Source of the DNA: a virus
IMG/VR virus record: IMGVR_UViG_3300044994_000560
Coordinates: 1-24,656 of that record
Strand: one strand, 5' to 3'
Length of the DNA: 24,656 nt
Shown here: piece after piece, positions 5,931 to 21,723 of the stretch
How positions within the stretch are numbered: the first letter of the stretch is position 1
How the letters are laid out: every line of letters begins with the position of its first letter
Translations under genes and position numbers: made by a program
Notes under the pieces: generated by a model
Told to the model about the DNA's origin: nothing
What the model saw: the letters and a program-made list of their open reading frames with translations, nothing else
The model's database searches: none

Positions 5931-5937
5931 AGCCTGT

Positions 5938-5968
5938 CTTGATTCTTGGCTCTTGATTCTTGGCTCTT
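5938..5968 (-). repeat. Heptad array (ARYCAAG family), about 4 units
   Basis: Reads CTTGATT CTTGGCT twice on the plus strand, that is AGCCAAG and AATCAAG on the minus strand, followed by a partial CTT. It ends 13 bp before the terminase small-subunit start, so it would lie in the 5' leader of the rightward late mRNA. Confidence 0.75.
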
Positions 5969-7964: not shown

Positions 7965-8435
7965 ATGTTCATCACAGTAGAAGAACTGAAGACACACCTG
8001 TATCCAGAGATCGTCAACGAAGTAGCCCGGTACCCGGCAATGACCGATGATGAAGAGCCGGTACCCACCAATCCTGAAGAAAACGAAATAGCACTCACCG
8101 CCATACAAACAGCTATTTCAGAGGCCAACGGCTACATGAGCCGTTATGATACCGCCACTTTATTTAATGCCTCAGGAAGCGACAGAGACGCTCACCTGGT
8201 CAATCTCATTAAAGACATGGCCGTTTGGCACTTCATAGTATTGGCCAATGCCAATGTAGAACTGGCATTGCGCGAAAAACGATACGACAATGCCATTGAA
8301 TACCTGGTAAGAGTGCAAGCAGGCAAAGTAGTACCCAACTGGCCATATGTGCCACAGAATACCTCATTGCCCGGCGGCGGTGCAGGGCAAAGTGTAAAGT
8401 TCAATTCCAATACCAAAAGAAGTAATCATTACTGA
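7965..8435 (+). CDS. DUF1320 family protein (Mu gp36-like)
   Basis: This is 156 residues from the ATG at 7965, 1 nt after the terminase stop. The frame is open further upstream, but that part lies inside the terminase gene, so this start is preferred. It begins MFITVEELKTHLYPEIV and is helical (ALTAIQTAISEANGYMSRYD, LVNLIKDMAVWHFIVLANA), ending in a Gly/Asn-rich tail. This pattern fits DUF1320, the Mu gp36 family, a small structural or head-tail connector protein of Mu-like phages. In Mu the gene lies elsewhere in the late operon; here it sits between terminase and portal. Confidence 0.75.
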   Translation: MFITVEELKTHLYPEIVNEVARYPAMTDDEEPVPTNPEENEIALTAIQTAISEANGYMSRYDTATLFNASGSDRDAHLVNLIKDMAVWHFIVLANANVELALREKRYDNAIEYLVRVQAGKVVPNWPYVPQNTSLPGGGAGQSVKFNSNTKRSNHY

Positions 8436-9697
8436 TGAGAACAAAGAATCAAGAGCCAAGAAACAAGACACTTACTTCGGCAGCACAGCCGGGTATAGTT
8501 GTTCAGAAAATAACCATACGCCCTGTTGAGCGCAGCAGATCCGACGTTCAAAGCTGGCGAAAAGCGCATCAGGCGGCTGAAAGTTACAGCAAGCTGCGCC
8601 GGCAGTTGTACGACCTCTATTCTGATGTCATTGTGGATGGTTTCACCTCCGAAACCATGAACAAGCGAATCAGGGCAGTAACCAACGGCGGCATCATGTT
8701 TTTTGACAAGAGTGGAAAAGAAGTGGATGCAGTCACTAAATACATCTACAGTCTTGCATTTCATCATCTGCTAAAGGAAATAGCCCTCACCCACGCCTGG
8801 GGTGTAACCGTGCTGGAATATATACCGCAAACCAAAAGCTGGTATTCAGTGCCTCGAAAACACATCTGGCCCCACGATAAGAAGATTACCTGGGAACAAA
8901 GCGGTGGCGATGGCATACACTACAACCAACCGCCTGAAAGCAATTACATCGTACAAGTTGGTGATGACGACGATTTGGGCTATCTGCTCCGTGTAACACC
9001 GCTTGTGTTGTACAAGCGTGGCAATTTGGGCGATTGGGCACAGTTTGCCGAAATTTTTGGAATGCCCTTCAGAGAGTATCGCTACAATGGCTATGACGAG
9101 AAAACCCGTCAGGAACTGGAAGTAACTGCCGAAAAAACCGGTGGAGCAGCTTATGCCATACTACCACAAGAGGCTGAATTCAAAATCCATCCCAACAACA
9201 GCACCGGCAGCAAAGATGTGTACAATGGGTTTCATGACGCGGTAAATAAAGAGATCCTCATATCCATTCTGGGCAATACCGAAACCACCCAAAGCAGCAG
9301 CAGCAGTGGATACGCACAAAGCGAAACTCACCTGAAAACAGAAGCCGAGGTAAAGGACGACGACCGCCGCTGGGTAGAGCGCGTGCTCAATGAAAAGATT
9401 CTGCCCATTATGGCACTGCACGGCTGGCCGGTGGAAGGTGGCTATTTCGCATATCCTGAAGCCAAAAAACAGCTCACACTCGATGAAGAGCTGAAGCTGG
9501 CCGGAAGCATGCCCATAGCCCGCAAATACTTCTACGAGAAGTACAATATTCCTATGCCGGAGGCAAGTGATGAACTGGTTAGTCAGCAGTCGGCAGTCAG
9601 TACACCACTGAATGAGAGCCAAGAGTCAAGAACCAAGAACCAAGACTTGAAAAAGCCGAAGGAGCTGAGCGCAGAACATCACCGTTTTTTCGGTTAG
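8435..9697 (+). CDS. Portal protein, DUF935 / Mu gp29-like
   Basis: This 420-residue portal subunit would form the ring through which DNA passes. Recognisable parts are YSKLRRQLYDLYSDVIVDG and FTSETMNKRIRAVTNG at the N-terminus, a wing and stem region around HAWGVTVLEYIPQT, FAEIFGMPFREYRYN, and ISILGNTETTQSSSSSGYAQ with a helix after it. Residues 3-11 (TKNQEPRNK) and about 395-404 (SQESRTKNQD) are translated 7-bp repeats. The gene starts inside the previous stop (TGATG). It ends at TAG 9695-9697, straight after a T TTT TTC slippery site and before a strong hairpin, so some ribosomes may shift to -1 and continue into F. Confidence 0.85.
   Translation: MRTKNQEPRNKTLTSAAQPGIVVQKITIRPVERSRSDVQSWRKAHQAAESYSKLRRQLYDLYSDVIVDGFTSETMNKRIRAVTNGGIMFFDKSGKEVDAVTKYIYSLAFHHLLKEIALTHAWGVTVLEYIPQTKSWYSVPRKHIWPHDKKITWEQSGGDGIHYNQPPESNYIVQVGDDDDLGYLLRVTPLVLYKRGNLGDWAQFAEIFGMPFREYRYNGYDEKTRQELEVTAEKTGGAAYAILPQEAEFKIHPNNSTGSKDVYNGFHDAVNKEILISILGNTETTQSSSSSGYAQSETHLKTEAEVKDDDRRWVERVLNEKILPIMALHGWPVEGGYFAYPEAKKQLTLDEELKLAGSMPIARKYFYEKYNIPMPEASDELVSQQSAVSTPLNESQESRTKNQDLKKPKELSAEHHRFFG
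8447..8467 (+). repeat. Heptad array inside the portal N-terminus
   Basis: Three exact units, AATCAAG, AGCCAAG and AAACAAG, lie just after the portal start codon and are translated as NQEPRNK. The array is free of stop codons in all three plus-strand frames. Confidence 0.75.
9617..9644 (+). repeat. Heptad array inside the portal C-terminus
   Basis: Four units, AGCCAAG, AGTCAAG, AACCAAG and AACCAAG, are translated in the portal frame as part of SQESRTKNQD. The array lies about 40 nt before the candidate frameshift site and would form a flexible linker. Confidence 0.8.
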
Positions 9698-9714
9698 CCC
9701 CCAATGATGGGGGC
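9685..9714 (+). promoter_or_regulatory. Candidate -1 programmed ribosomal frameshift signal, portal to F
   Basis: The slippery heptamer T TTT TTC (9685-9691) is in register with the portal frame (codons CGT TTT TTC GGT TAG). A 6-nt spacer (CGGTTA) follows, then a perfect hairpin: GCCCCC (9697-9702), loop AATGAT, GGGGGC (9709-9714). A -1 slip avoids the TAG and enters a frame that is open from 9616 to the F stop at 11028. The fusion would be about 864 residues. Confidence 0.6.
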
Positions 9715-9768
9715 GTAACAGAACTTACTGCCGAATTATATGAGCAGCACTGTCAGCGATGCAATACT

Positions 9769-11028
9769 TTGTCCGATCCGCCGCATGTGGTCACTTTAAC
9801 ACAGCGCGAAGACGCCATTATTGACAGCGTGGTGCAGCATGTTTTTGCTCGTGCTGTGCCGGGTCGAAGCAAACTGCCATTTGACAGGAAGAGCACCCGT
9901 ATGATGGCCGAGACATTACTCAAGGCTATGGAAGATGGCTACGGCTCTGCATTGAGCGATCTCACACCAGGCACACCCGACTATAACATGATGCAGGCGC
10001 TGGGCAGAAACATCTATGTATTCTCTGCCGCTAAAAACTGGCAGATGTGCCGCGAAGTAACTCGCAACCTGGTAGAAGACGGGCAGGTAGTGAGCTTTGG
10101 TAAATTCAGGCAGAAAAGTGCTGAAACGCTCAAGCAATGGGTAGGACCCTGGTTGCAGGCAGAATACAGCCATGCCCTGGCAGCATCGCAAATGGCCAGC
10201 AACTGGGTAGCACTGGAAAACAGCCCTGCTACCAAATTGCGTTACCTCACCGTGAACGATAGGCGTGTAAGACCCTCACATGCCAAGCTGCATAATATCT
10301 GCCTGCCCAAAGACGATGCATTCTGGAATACCTGGTATCCGCCCAACGGATGGCTGTGCCGCTGCAATGTGATCAGCGACAGCTCAGGAAAGCTGACCGA
10401 TAAAAGCAAAATTGAATATCCTGATACCAAAGAAGCCCCGGAAGCTTTCAGGTTCAATCCCGGCAAGAAGAAAGTCATCTTCCCACCTGACCATCCATAC
10501 TACAACGCCACCTCCAAGGCTGATCTGGTGAAGGCTATTGCCGATATGCCAAGGGAGTATCAGTTTGATCGCATCTACAGCAATGAGAATGGTGGATATT
10601 TAGACAAGCATATCCTTTACAAACAGGGCGATGATACATATTTGCCCGAACTGGCCAAGTGGATAGCGCAGGAAGGCAAAGCAGTGGAATTGTTACCGGA
10701 GATACACTTCAGTGAAAAGGAGGTGCGAGAAAAAGTTTTTCCGGGATACAAACACCCCACCAAAAACCCCGACATGCGTATTGATGGGAAGTACTATGAT
10801 GCTAAGAAAGCAGATCCTACAGATGTGGACGAGGGTATATTCGACAATATTATTCGCAAAGCTAACCAAAAGGATGTGCATGGCGTAGTAATAATGGAAC
10901 ACCACAATATGCCAATGGATTTCTTAAAAAGAAGATCAAATGCTCGTTTAGCCAAACCAGAAATAACACTTCAAGAAATACTGTTCTACAGAGACAGAAA
11001 GTTGCTGTATAAAGCAAAAAAGGAGTAG
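9769..11028 (+). CDS. Head morphogenesis protein, Mu gpF-like, with C-terminal nuclease-like domain
   Basis: The N-terminal part (about residues 1-230 from this start) is the Mu F / SPP1 gp7 head morphogenesis family: KLRYLTVNDRRVRPSHAKLH and WYPPNGWLCRCNVISD are hallmark motifs. It is a minor head protein at the portal. Residues from about 290 on form a separate domain with NPDMRIDGKYYDAKKADP and IIRKANQKDVHGVVIMEHH, resembling the nuclease tips of CdiA-type or phage Barnase/EndoU/colicin-like toxins. The shown start is TTG; no ATG occurs until well inside the conserved region. The frame is open back to 9616, and the bases before the TTG encode protein-like sequence (LAPNDGGVTELTAELYEQ and a CQRC pair), so entry by -1 frameshift from the portal is the better explanation. 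Confidence 0.8.
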   Translation: MSDPPHVVTLTQREDAIIDSVVQHVFARAVPGRSKLPFDRKSTRMMAETLLKAMEDGYGSALSDLTPGTPDYNMMQALGRNIYVFSAAKNWQMCREVTRNLVEDGQVVSFGKFRQKSAETLKQWVGPWLQAEYSHALAASQMASNWVALENSPATKLRYLTVNDRRVRPSHAKLHNICLPKDDAFWNTWYPPNGWLCRCNVISDSSGKLTDKSKIEYPDTKEAPEAFRFNPGKKKVIFPPDHPYYNATSKADLVKAIADMPREYQFDRIYSNENGGYLDKHILYKQGDDTYLPELAKWIAQEGKAVELLPEIHFSEKEVREKVFPGYKHPTKNPDMRIDGKYYDAKKADPTDVDEGIFDNIIRKANQKDVHGVVIMEHHNMPMDFLKRRSNARLAKPEITLQEILFYRDRKLLYKAKKE

Positions 11029-13730: not shown

Positions 13731-13786
13731 AGCCAAGAACCAAGAGTCAAGAAACAAGAGCCAAGAACCAAGAGATAAGAATCAAG
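13731..13786 (+). repeat. Longest heptad array (8 units)
   Basis: Eight contiguous 7-bp units: AGCCAAG, AACCAAG, AGTCAAG, AAACAAG, AGCCAAG, AACCAAG, AGATAAG, AATCAAG. They define the consensus A-R-Y-C-A-A-G. The array fills most of the gap between the genes at 13715 and 13815 (both minus). Confidence 0.85.
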
Positions 13787-15849: not shown

Positions 15850-15870
15850 TGTCAAGAACCAAGAGCCAAG
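15850..15870 (+). repeat. Heptad array, 3 units
   Basis: TGTCAAG, AACCAAG, AGCCAAG upstream of the DUF4406 start and directly joined to a second-family array at 15873. Confidence 0.65.
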
Positions 15871-15872
15871 TC

Positions 15873-18036: not shown

Positions 18037-18071
18037 ATTGATTCTTGGTTCTTGATTCTTGGTTCTTGATT
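18037..18071 (-). repeat. Heptad array, 4-5 units
   Basis: CTTGGTT, CTTGATT, CTTGGTT, CTTGATT preceded by ATTGATT. It ends exactly at the stop codon (18072-18074) of the second ATPase gene. Confidence 0.8.
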
Positions 18072-18683
18072 CTATTCAGTTCCCCAGTATTCGATGGCTT
18101 TTTCAGGCCAGATATCGAAGTATCCGCCCGGGTTGTAGCGACCCATACTGATGGCTCTGTAGCCTTGTATGTGCAGCTTCAGGTCGGCATCGAAACGGAT
18201 GGCTTTGCACGGTCTTCCTTCGGGGCTGCTGCCTTGGGCGTGGCTGATGATGATGAACAGCTTTTCGGGAAATTCTTTCTTCAGCAGCAGGTAGTCTTTG
18301 TAGCTCATCTGGGTGTACTGCCAGCTATCAATGAAGATGTATTTGGGTGCACGCTTCTTGCGGAGGCGCATTTTCAGCTCTTCTATCTCTTCGCAGCCTA
18401 TGAGGATGTTGGCGCTATGCTCATGAAGTTGGAACCGCTGTACCTGTTCTTTCATAGTCATGCGGGCGCCTTCTTCGAGGGAGTTATAAAAACAGGGCCC
18501 CAGTGTGGCCAGCTCTTTGAGGAGCTGCATGCAAAAGGAGGTTTTGCCGTTGCCGGATAATCCCCAGATGAAAAAAACGCCGCTGTTTTCGGGGTTTCCG
18601 AAAGCTTGCTGCCAGCGTTCTGACCATTGGATGATATCGTACTTCTTTTGCATGATTTGGGTAGGGTTATAGGCTCGCTCCAT
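18072..18683 (-). CDS. Second P-loop ATPase, RecA/DnaB-like
   Basis: This 203-residue protein has a clear Walker A (GLSGNGKTS, 41-49) and Walker B (KYIFIDS, 114-120). It also has IIISHAQGS (144-152), resembling the segment after Walker B in RecA, RadA and DnaB-type ATPases, and a closing DADLKLHIQGYRAISMGRYN region. It lacks an N-terminal DNA-binding domain. It overlaps the end of the MuB-like gene by 17 nt, so the two are linked in translation and probably in function. Possible roles are target or replication-fork remodelling after strand transfer, or helicase loading. In Mu only one ATPase (B) serves this stage. Confidence 0.7.
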   Translation of the reverse strand: MERAYNPTQIMQKKYDIIQWSERWQQAFGNPENSGVFFIWGLSGNGKTSFCMQLLKELATLGPCFYNSLEEGARMTMKEQVQRFQLHEHSANILIGCEEIEELKMRLRKKRAPKYIFIDSWQYTQMSYKDYLLLKKEFPEKLFIIISHAQGSSPEGRPCKAIRFDADLKLHIQGYRAISMGRYNPGGYFDIWPEKAIEYWGTE

Positions 18684-19605
18684 TTTGTTCAGGGTTGTAT
18701 CCGAGCTTTGTTGAGGAAAGGATCAGTAGTGATTCAGCCCGGCGAAGGCCTCCTATTTCTCCGTTGGCATCGGTGAGGAGACATTTTTTTACCAGCTCGG
18801 GGAGGCGGCTTTTGTCGTCCATGTTGTGCTCGAGCACATCGCTGATGAGCTTGCGGTAGAAACTGATGCGCTCATTGCGGTCGGTAGGTATGATCTTCAT
18901 ATACCGGTCGCTGTACCGGCTGAATATTTCGCGGAAGCCGGTCTTTTTGGCACGTATGCCGTTGGTGATGAAGGTGCGCAGGCCATCGGCTCCGATGAGG
19001 TACCAGCCGCAGTGGTTTTCGGTGGCGTTCCACAGTTCTTTGAGTTCGAGAAAGGCGCGGTAGTTGAGGTCACCGGCTTCATCTACTATCACTATGGGGT
19101 GGTCGAGGATGGTGAGGCAGTATTTGATATCGGCTTTGATATCGGCATAGCGTTGGTTATTGTCCACACCCAGGGCTTTGGCTATTGCTCTGATAAAAAG
19201 TTGCTGTGTTTTAGCTTGTGAGGCATCAATGTAGAAGCAGTTCCTGAGTGTTTTGCTGAGGTATTTGGCAGCATATGTCTTGCCAATGGCACAGTCATCT
19301 ACGAGTATCATGCCTTTGGCGTTCTGCTGGCAGAACTGCACATCGCTTGCTATGGCTTCAAAGACTTCGGTACGCACCATGTTCCAGCGGCGGGCATGGA
19401 GGGTGATGTTGAGCTCGCGCCCTAATGAGATCCACTGTGCATCTTTGATGAGCGAGTCGCCTACTCCGGCGGTTTTGAGCCTCGAAAACACTGATGGGTT
19501 GATGTTGTATGATTTGGCAAAGGCGCTGTCGGTGCCTCCAAAGTTGGCACGCACCTTCAGCAGTGCTGCCAGTACTTGTTCTTTGAATTGCGGTGTTATT
19601 TGCAT
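18667..19605 (-). CDS. MuB-like transposition ATPase
   Basis: This 312-residue AAA+ protein has an N-terminal helix-turn-helix (about 20-50: GGTDSAFAKSYNINPSVFSR), a Walker A variant DDCAIGKT (103-110), Walker B IVIVDEAG (171-178), and a C-terminal helical part ending in a basic tail. MuB binds DNA non-specifically, delivers target DNA to the transposase and prevents self-insertion. It lies directly after the transposase gene in the Mu order A-B. The first Gly of the canonical Walker A is replaced by Asp, while the GKT is intact. Start 19605 has a TTTTAAAACAATATCACC leader. Confidence 0.85.
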   Translation of the reverse strand: MQITPQFKEQVLAALLKVRANFGGTDSAFAKSYNINPSVFSRLKTAGVGDSLIKDAQWISLGRELNITLHARRWNMVRTEVFEAIASDVQFCQQNAKGMILVDDCAIGKTYAAKYLSKTLRNCFYIDASQAKTQQLFIRAIAKALGVDNNQRYADIKADIKYCLTILDHPIVIVDEAGDLNYRAFLELKELWNATENHCGWYLIGADGLRTFITNGIRAKKTGFREIFSRYSDRYMKIIPTDRNERISFYRKLISDVLEHNMDDKSRLPELVKKCLLTDANGEIGGLRRAESLLILSSTKLGYNPEQNGASL

Positions 19606-19617
19606 GGTGATATTGTT

Positions 19618-21723
19618 TTAAAATCTTGATGCCGTGGATGTGGAGTATGCCTGCCTGCCGGAGGAAGGGGTGTTGTACCCGGGGGGTTCGATGGGTTCAG
19701 GGATGACCATAGAAGACTGACGCTCGTCTTGGCTCTTGGTTCCCGGCTCCTGGTTCCTGGCTCCAGGCTTCCTGATCGTGAATGTTTTGGGCTTTTCTTC
19801 TGCTGCTACTTCAAATATTTCTACGCGCTCAATAGAATGTCTGCCTGTCTTGATGAAGCCATCTACGGTAGCTTGGTATCTTGACATGAGTGCTCGGTTG
19901 TCATCATCTGCAGCGGTTCTTTCCAGCGATGATCTGTTGTATTTCAGATCGCCGAGCAGTTCGCATACTATAGCGCCATTGTGTACCAGTACTGCTTTAA
20001 GAACATTTCCATCGTTGTCATCGAGCCAATAACAATCCAAAGTTTTGCCTTCTACTTTCTTCAAAATCTGAATGAGCGTATCGCCTGTAGCAACACAGCC
20101 GTTCAGCCCCAGTACACGTTCCCGGTACTGGAGCTTCGCACGGCCTGCATTTACTGATGTGGGTGTACGGTGGCCTATGAATGGCAGTATGCCGTACCAG
20201 TTAATGGGTTTCAGATCGGGGTGCTGATTGGTTATCCAAACCTCCCAGCGCGTCATACCCGGGTATTTGTTCTGATCAGGATGAAGCGTGTTATTCCAGG
20301 TCTCGATGTCTTCATGCGCATTGTCAATGATAATGTCGGCAGGGATTTGCACTTTTTTGGCCACCCTGGCCTGATTACTCTCGCTGATGGCGAAGGGTCG
20401 GGCGAGCCATCCCTCGCGTTTCTTTTCAATGTTGTAGCGCAAATCGCGATAGAAGCGCTCTATGCGTTTGCCCCTGGCGTTATTGGCTTCAATGCGTACG
20501 GCAGAGAACATTACGCCAGGCGTGAGAAAGGTGCCCATGTATGAGGAATTGAGCGACATCTCTGCTTCCAGTTCTGCGGGCATATTGAAGCCCCATTCGG
20601 CAATGTTGCGGACAAGCTGGCGGTAAAACTCCAGTATGATCCCTTCTTTAGTGTCGCCGTATGTCCAGGCTATAAAAGCCTGAGAATGCAGATCAATGCC
20701 ATTATAGAACCATACCCTTTTTCCGCTGGTGCTTTCAAATGGCGGCTGACGGTCGTCGACAGATATCATCGATCCGCTGAAGTTGGGTGCCATTAGTTTG
20801 TGGTATGGCACATATTTGCTCTTATACTTTTGGTTATCGTCAGTCCGGAGACGTTCGTTGATGATTCTGTTTTCCCATTGTTGCAGGTAGTTGTACACCG
20901 AGGCCTCGCTGATGGGTGCGAATAGTTCGTTGTTTGGGTTGTAAACCTCACCGGTTTCAGAATTGACGATCTCAATCTTTCCCTGCAGGAACTGATCATA
21001 CCGGTGGGCAATTTCCAGATAAGTGGGTTTATGCCTTTGTGTGGCAAACATGTCGTTCCACAGCTTGACCATGAGGTCTGTCACTTTCTGGGCGTTGCTG
21101 TTGCCAAATTTTTCAGAAATGAGTGCTGCATAGCCCAGCTTGTGAAACTCATTCATCTTTTCGCGCAACCGGCGTTCATTTGTCGGCAGGTCGTGTTTAA
21201 CCTGATAGTTTCGCAAGAGGTAGTCGTTGAAATGATGAACATCAGCAACAACAGAAGACCAAACACCTCGGACGCTTCCTCCCATGCGGCGGTGCATGGC
21301 TTCGCGTTGGGTAAATAGTGATTTAGCAGCAGCCAATACCGAGGCATTGACCGTATAAACTACGCGGTACTTGGCTTCGAGATAATTACCGGTGGGGAGC
21401 TGGTAATTGTCGAAAAAAGTCCGTGCAGCCGCGTCCATGGTGAAGTGGTCTTCCAAAGGGTTACGCGAAGCCGTGGGTGCGCCAAAACGGGCGATTATAT
21501 TATGCTGCCATTTTGCAGGCAGTGAGGCAAATTCAATGAGTGAATTGCGGCCATTGCCGCCTTTTTGAAGGAGATTGCCGGTTCTGGACCACTTATCCCA
21601 AAGCGATTGTGAAACTATACCGGAGGCGCTGCGCTCTTTAACCAGCACATCGGCTCTTACGCACAATATGTTGTCTTTGTAGGCAAAGGGCGAGGTGGGC
21701 GATAGTTGCATGGGCGCGGTCAT
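19618..21723 (-). CDS. MuA-like DDE transposase
   Basis: This is a 701-residue protein. The N-terminal Mu-type DNA-binding domain runs to about residue 80 (VSQSLWDKWSRTGNLLQKGG). Two further helical domains follow. A catalytic core runs from about 310: MISVDDRQPP (Asp323/324), AEMSLNSSYMGTF (386-399), and IEANNARGKRIERFY (411-425, Glu412 or Glu422). The beta-barrel and C-terminal parts follow. It cuts and joins the prophage ends in replicative transposition. The second acidic residue appears to be Glu (386 or 388) rather than Asp. Residues 652-667 are encoded by a degenerate heptad array; the rest of the C-terminus is Pro/Ser-rich, whereas MuA ends in a domain that contacts B and ClpX. The start lies 10 nt after repeat R1. 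Confidence 0.9.
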   Translation of the reverse strand: MTAPMQLSPTSPFAYKDNILCVRADVLVKERSASGIVSQSLWDKWSRTGNLLQKGGNGRNSLIEFASLPAKWQHNIIARFGAPTASRNPLEDHFTMDAAARTFFDNYQLPTGNYLEAKYRVVYTVNASVLAAAKSLFTQREAMHRRMGGSVRGVWSSVVADVHHFNDYLLRNYQVKHDLPTNERRLREKMNEFHKLGYAALISEKFGNSNAQKVTDLMVKLWNDMFATQRHKPTYLEIAHRYDQFLQGKIEIVNSETGEVYNPNNELFAPISEASVYNYLQQWENRIINERLRTDDNQKYKSKYVPYHKLMAPNFSGSMISVDDRQPPFESTSGKRVWFYNGIDLHSQAFIAWTYGDTKEGIILEFYRQLVRNIAEWGFNMPAELEAEMSLNSSYMGTFLTPGVMFSAVRIEANNARGKRIERFYRDLRYNIEKKREGWLARPFAISESNQARVAKKVQIPADIIIDNAHEDIETWNNTLHPDQNKYPGMTRWEVWITNQHPDLKPINWYGILPFIGHRTPTSVNAGRAKLQYRERVLGLNGCVATGDTLIQILKKVEGKTLDCYWLDDNDGNVLKAVLVHNGAIVCELLGDLKYNRSSLERTAADDDNRALMSRYQATVDGFIKTGRHSIERVEIFEVAAEEKPKTFTIRKPGARNQEPGTKSQDERQSSMVIPEPIEPPGYNTPSSGRQAYSTSTASRF
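19728..19769 (-). repeat. Degenerate heptad array inside the transposase C-terminus
   Basis: CTTGGCT, CTTGGTT, CCCGGCT, CCTGGTT, CCTGGCT, CCAGGCT: two good units and four drifted ones. Read in the transposase frame it gives GARNQEPGTKSQDE. Confidence 0.7.

Follow-up and report, generated by a model that had tools for sequence, protein, structure and literature searches.

The stretch of DNA analysed here (the window; 24,656 nt, positions 1 to 24,656 of the IMG/VR virus record IMGVR_UViG_3300044994_000560) contains a portal gene followed by a gene for F, a minor head protein of the MuF/SPP1 gp7 type, and the two adjoin a terminase and a gpG-like neck gene. In profile searches both proteins passed the curated cut-offs, the portal with 212.8 bits against Portal_Mu PF06074 (cut-off 23.9) and F with 51.6 bits against Phage_Mu_F / SPP1 gp7 PF04233 (cut-off 29.6). 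The coordinates of the features are collected in Table 1.

Table 1. Features of the portal/F junction and of the surrounding window
Feature	Position	Strand	Basis
Portal gene (420 aa zero-frame product)	8435..9697	+	ORF; Pfam Portal_Mu PF06074, E 1e-62
Slippery heptamer T TTT TTC in portal register	9685..9691	+	Sequence; same heptamer at homologous junctions
Spacer GGTTA, ending with the TA of the zero-frame stop TAG (9695-9697)	9692..9696	+	Sequence
Predicted stimulatory hairpin GCCCCCA-ATGA-TGGGGGC, 7 bp	9697..9714	+	RNA fold; conserved and covarying in relatives
Open -1 frame with F (MuF/SPP1 gp7-like minor head protein)	9616..11028	+	Translation; Pfam Phage_Mu_F PF04233, E 1.8e-13
Predicted transframe portal-F fusion, 864 aa	8435..11028	+	Length and domain order match most fused relatives; PHROG 35074
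7-nt-period repeat	5937-5963(-), 8442-8468(+), 9619-9645(+), 13733-13773(+)	both	
7-nt-period repeat, further copies	15852-15871(+), 18043-18069(-), 19727-19760(-)	both	
701-aa protein in the position of a MuA-like transposase	19618-21723	-	
AAA ATPase, beside the 701-aa protein	18667-19605	-	

The portal ORF ends CGT TTT TTC GGT TAG, and the first T of the T6C run is the third base of its codon, i.e. the correct register for an X XXY YYZ heptamer. A sequence-only reading of this DNA had placed T TTT TTC in the register for -1 slippage, which was borne out. The hairpin that it described is also present, but not with the stated 6 bp and 6-nt spacer: the arms GCCCCCA (9697-9703) and TGGGGGC (9708-9714) pair over 7 bp around an ATGA loop, and the spacer is 5 nt, or 6 nt if counted to the C5/G5 core. 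A stem at +5 meets the structure criterion for a -1 frameshift signal (5-9 nt downstream). The region 9685-9760 has a minimum free energy of -22.5 kcal/mol (z -2.2 relative to shuffled sequences). A terminator reading was rejected, as the T-run precedes the hairpin on the plus strand and it is an A-run that follows the hairpin on the minus strand.

Translation confirmed that the -1 frame is open from 9616 to 11025, through all of F, and that F has no nearby ATG. The first ATG, GTG or TTG past the slip site is the TTG at 9769 (+28 codons) that had been named as the first usable codon, and the first ATG lies at +72 codons; within the window's open -1 frame there is no ATG, GTG or TTG upstream of the slip site. 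The criterion of an overlapping downstream -1 ORF without a start of its own is thus met, on sequence evidence only. Ribosomes are predicted to enter the F frame at the slip site, with CGG (9691-9693) as the first shifted codon, giving a fusion of 419 + 445 = 864 residues; most naturally fused relatives have 812-904. The phrog_35074 profile (890 positions) covers portal and F as one protein, and this gave a first hint that fused relatives exist.

Two other observations concern the window as a whole. An interspersed repeat with a 7-nt period (CCAAGAACCAAGAATCAAGAG type) gave 24 matches on both strands where 0.75 were expected; one copy lies at the portal start codon, and another, which is coding in both frames, falls within the portal linker 40 nt ahead of the slip site. 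The 701-aa protein had no Pfam match at E 0.001.

Scans of viral contigs with single proteins gave almost no matches because the relatives are only 20-45% identical, and a query built from an alignment was needed. The portal-alignment query recovered 80 loci from IMG/VR and 80 from GTDB genomes, and about 180 related loci were examined; a distant Mu-like contig with an unrelated layout (L005) was left out. Among the loci analysed, portal and F were fused in 85, split with F in the -1 frame in 66 and split with F in the +1 frame in eight; F was not recognised in 19. These counts cover loci recovered with one portal motif, and kinship inflates naive probabilities, for which deduplication and shuffle controls correct only partly.

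After removal of identical junctions, an in-register T6C was found at 106 distinct junctions (59 fused, 45 split with F in -1 and two scored as +1, one of which, L146, is really -1 with a later break in F). A perfect stem of at least 5 bp begins exactly 6 nt past the heptamer at 100 of the 106, and at 98 the stem is at least 6 bp; at random positions in the same genes the background for a perfect stem of at least 5 bp is 2.2%. Heptamer, spacer position and stem are therefore all conserved in the comparison of relatives that had been proposed as a check. No further in-register T6C occurs anywhere in 135.8 kb of the same portal ORFs, which, together with the recurrence at 106 homologous junctions, argues that the signal in the window did not arise by chance. 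In the gut phage MT839296 (L009), whose F is only 28% identical and lies in the -1 frame, the portal ends CGT TTT TTC GAC TGA and the stem GCCCCG..CGGGGC comes next. The same junction is seen in the hankyphage p00 (L014), in other gut phages and in the Elizabethkingia phage TCUEAP3 (L020), where the stem is GCTCCTC/GAGGAGC.

The specificity of the signal was apparent from a search that used no protein information. The pattern TTTTTTC-N6-GCCCCG-N3..15-CGGGGC matched at least 120 stretches in 2.9 million viral contigs. Among the 120 matches listed, 113 adjoin a portal homologue, 111 of them in register, with F in the -1 frame in 75 and fused in 33. Four more of the listed matches abut F at a contig end, so that 117 of the 120 lie at portal/F junctions; the other three adjoin neither portal nor F. 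A single DNA pattern thus locates the junction in metagenomes. Judged from its recurrence, the signal at the portal/F junction of Mu-like phages of Bacteroidota is deeply conserved and ancient, and the earlier observation is both correct and much more general than first noted.

The signal occurs in two layouts. In split loci, as in the window, a -1 slip would produce portal-F, whereas in loci where the two genes are fused in frame it would produce a truncated portal. Fused homologues, which the sequence-only reading had suggested looking for, are numerous and most retain heptamer, spacer and hairpin. In Porphyromonas gingivalis phages (L006, L021) and a gut phage (L012), for example, portal-F is one continuous ORF that despite the fusion retains CGT/GCT TTT TTC, the 6-nt spacer and GCCCCG/CGGGGC, and a -1 slip would reach a stop after about 21-32 codons. 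Across the fused class the -1 frame stops 6-32 codons past the slip site in 50 of 50 loci. There was no evidence of selection on the length of this -1 tail, since the +1 frame is short too. A dnaX-like arrangement, in which the unshifted product is long and the shifted one short, is met by the fused class only and not by the window.

On a 125-row portal tree, which is a quick tree with some open branches, at least eight changes between the fused and split -1 layouts were required among signal-bearing rows, with the signal kept. In a sister clade of Saprospiraceae/Chitinophagaceae-type phages, T6C is replaced by A AAA AAG, A AAA AAA or G GGA AAG, followed after about 6 nt by the long stem GCCGTAG..CTACGGC. 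Seven loci have this type of signal with a stop one codon past the slip site (L051, L056, L088, L109, L113, L115, L130). Making both products is not universal, since six fused loci have no usable heptamer: two have none at all (L057, L067), and the other four come from Sphingobacteriaceae. These four (L143, L147, L149 and L154; Pedobacter, Sphingobacterium and Mucilaginibacter prophages) have a T-run decayed to CTTTTTC and out of register but still hold remnants of GCCCCG..CGGGGC, and on that pattern would apparently represent an independent loss of the frameshift. Two further loci (L062, L116) have the signal with F in the +1 frame about 300 nt downstream; their near relatives L071 and L072 are fused, and misassembly or damage to the gene may account for the +1 layout.

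In the 43 deduplicated split loci, the -1 peptide starts FFR(x)SP, or a variant of it, and continues to an LY motif. In many split loci the first ATG, GTG or TTG lies 50 to 110 codons past the slip site, and at seven loci a stop lying zero or one codon upstream of that site blocks the -1 frame. No ATG, GTG or TTG precedes the conserved F sequence in L058, L075, L020, L024, L139, L159 and L178. Between the zero-frame stop and the first possible start, the -1 frames of L058 and L075 are 83% identical at the amino acid level, with a dN of 0.10 and a saturated dS; the other frames are not so conserved. Judged by these substitutions, the -1 frame is under protein-like selection before any start codon, and ribosomes would seem to enter F only by slipping.

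Constraint was also evident in the nucleotides of the signal. The codon ahead of TTT TTC is GAT, CGT, AGT, TCT, GGT, AAT, TAT, CCT, GCT, TGT or TTT, ending in T without exception although it encodes 10 amino acids; for most of these, codons with a final T make up only 17-42% in the same genes. At the two varying inner stem pairs CG, GC, TA and AT all occur; in a leave-one-out covariation analysis, pair 5 was Watson-Crick in 90 of 94 loci (best of 1000 shuffles, 67) and pair 6 in 90 of 95 (best of 1000 shuffles, 59). From these patterns, the constraint on the junction is one that acts on the RNA. The stem of the window type (5-8 bp) is nevertheless short for a strong stimulator.

The split layout could reflect no more than a one-base indel in this phage, by mutation or sequencing error, that disrupted what is really one fused portal-F gene. 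Homopolymers are error-prone, and relatives fused in frame do exist. The same layout, however, is found at some 45 distinct split junctions from unrelated assemblies, prophages and the cultured hankyphage p00 and Elizabethkingia TCUEAP3; split loci form clades on the portal tree; and most of the continuous-frame relatives, which might have exposed the T-run as a recent indel, keep heptamer, spacer and hairpin. We consider that this explanation can be virtually ruled out. A start of its own for F, non-ATG or coupled, near the portal stop, with the T-run and hairpin serving coupling or mRNA stability, is very unlikely but has precedents among the relatives. Phage Mu F is annotated with a separate RBS and a start overlapping the portal end; L036 no longer has T6C and has acquired an ATG for F; the distant Flavobacterium phages L008 and L019 have no slippery site and a separate F in the +1 frame with its own start; and the hankyphage has ATG GTG ATA across the portal stop. 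In the hankyphage and some Prevotella relatives the ATG for F directly follows the hairpin, and an independent start is therefore also possible there. Such a start is contradicted by the loci without any start codon ahead of conserved F sequence, and a coupling hairpin would require neither an in-register heptamer nor retention in fused genes. Junctions combining the absence of a slippery site with an independent F start, which would have spoken against frameshifting, proved to be confined to exceptions and outgroups (L008, L019, L036 and phage Mu).

Transcriptional slippage on the T6 run would also give mRNAs in both frames, and the slip site is indeed a homopolymer. Six Ts are a short run for RNA polymerase slippage, the hairpin 6 nt downstream would not yet be made while the polymerase is on the run, yet its position is fixed and its pairs covary, and the sister clade, with A AAA AAG/A or the non-homopolymer G GGA AAG and another hairpin, argues against it; we regard it as highly improbable. 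For the fused class, the signal might be no more than the peptide motif FFxxAPxxGA, without slippage. The 3' arm is in one common phase, read as AP..GA, in 37 of the 49 fused loci, so part of the conservation could indeed be at the peptide level. In the other 12, however, the arm is read in two other phases (ERGY, EPGL or VGR) and the stem is still intact, 48 of 49 loci use GCC for the Ala, and neither the invariable T before the FF codons nor the covariation of the stem is explained by a peptide. We therefore give a motif alone little credence. The feature is, with high confidence, a -1 programmed ribosomal frameshift signal, an assignment that rests entirely on sequence comparison, without translation or mass data; slippage in cells, its efficiency, the stoichiometry and the role are inferred.

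In a frameshifting model for split loci, most ribosomes, or some set fraction, would read the portal to its stop and yield portal alone. Others would pause at the hairpin with TTT in the P site and TTC in the A site, slip back one base on U UUU UUC and read on through F, yielding the portal-F fusion. This would set the proportion of subunits with and without F, so that a few F domains are built into the portal ring, for which SPP1 depends on gp7 binding the portal non-covalently. If the slip efficiency is e, the fusion fraction would be e in split genes and 1-e in fused genes; free switching between the layouts suggests an e near one half, which is a prediction and not a result. The "minor amount" of fusion foreseen by the sequence-only reading is not required, given that fused lineages share the signal and a slip there gives the short form. 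It is thus possible, though only tentatively proposed, that slippage is about 50% efficient with equal portal:portal-F ratios in both layouts, and that the head contains a mixed portal dodecamer with a set number of F domains inside.

A search of the available literature for portal/MuF frameshifting found no published report, in keeping with the earlier statement that no established case was known. PRFect lists MuF-like genes, with VIP2, only among possible false positives (PMC10885494), and the hankyphage paper, which includes virion mass spectrometry by gel band, makes no mention of frameshifting (PMC12135933). The F homologue SPP1 gp7 is present in few copies, carried through strong portal binding (PMC6316719); a covalent link made through frameshifting would achieve this at a fixed ratio. 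SPP1 gp6/gp7 and Mu gp29/gp30 belong to the same portal and minor head protein families in the same gene order, but there F is a separate protein, whereas the prediction here is that some of the portal subunits carry it covalently.

A conserved -1 frameshift in the tail assembly chaperones of tailed phages (lambda G/GT) was reportedly described by Xu, Hendrix and Duda in 2004. The portal/F junction resembles these in lying in a phage structural operon, in its in-register X XXY YYZ, in giving a short product and a C-terminally extended fusion, and in being conserved in function across great sequence divergence. It differs in joining a portal to a MuF head protein rather than the gene pair before the tape measure, and in having an inverted layout where the fusion is the unshifted product. 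That layout is like E. coli dnaX (tau/gamma), where the zero frame is long and a -1 slip with a downstream hairpin gives a truncated form that would enter the same oligomer; here, however, the heptamer is U UUU UUC rather than A AAA AAG, the protein is a phage portal and the stem has 5-8 bp. Two forms of a head protein also arise by -1 frameshifting in T7 (10A/10B), Lactobacillus phage A2 (major head protein) and Listeria A118/PSA, but these extend a major capsid or tail protein and none joins a portal to a MuF minor head protein.

If the frameshift reading holds, portal/MuF would join the few phage genes known to use conserved programmed frameshifting, in a widespread group of gut, oral and environmental Bacteroidota phages that includes the hankyphage. 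Current annotations give either two separate proteins or one fusion, where by this reading both forms would be made. The MuF copy number on the portal becomes directly testable, and the junctions would form a natural series for comparison, with one signal that lengthens a protein in some lineages, shortens it in others and has been lost independently. Slippage at about 50%, if true, would make the choice of layout almost neutral and account for its repeated switching. The signal would then be a stoichiometry device that breaks the symmetry of the portal and is common to most Mu-like phages of Bacteroidota.
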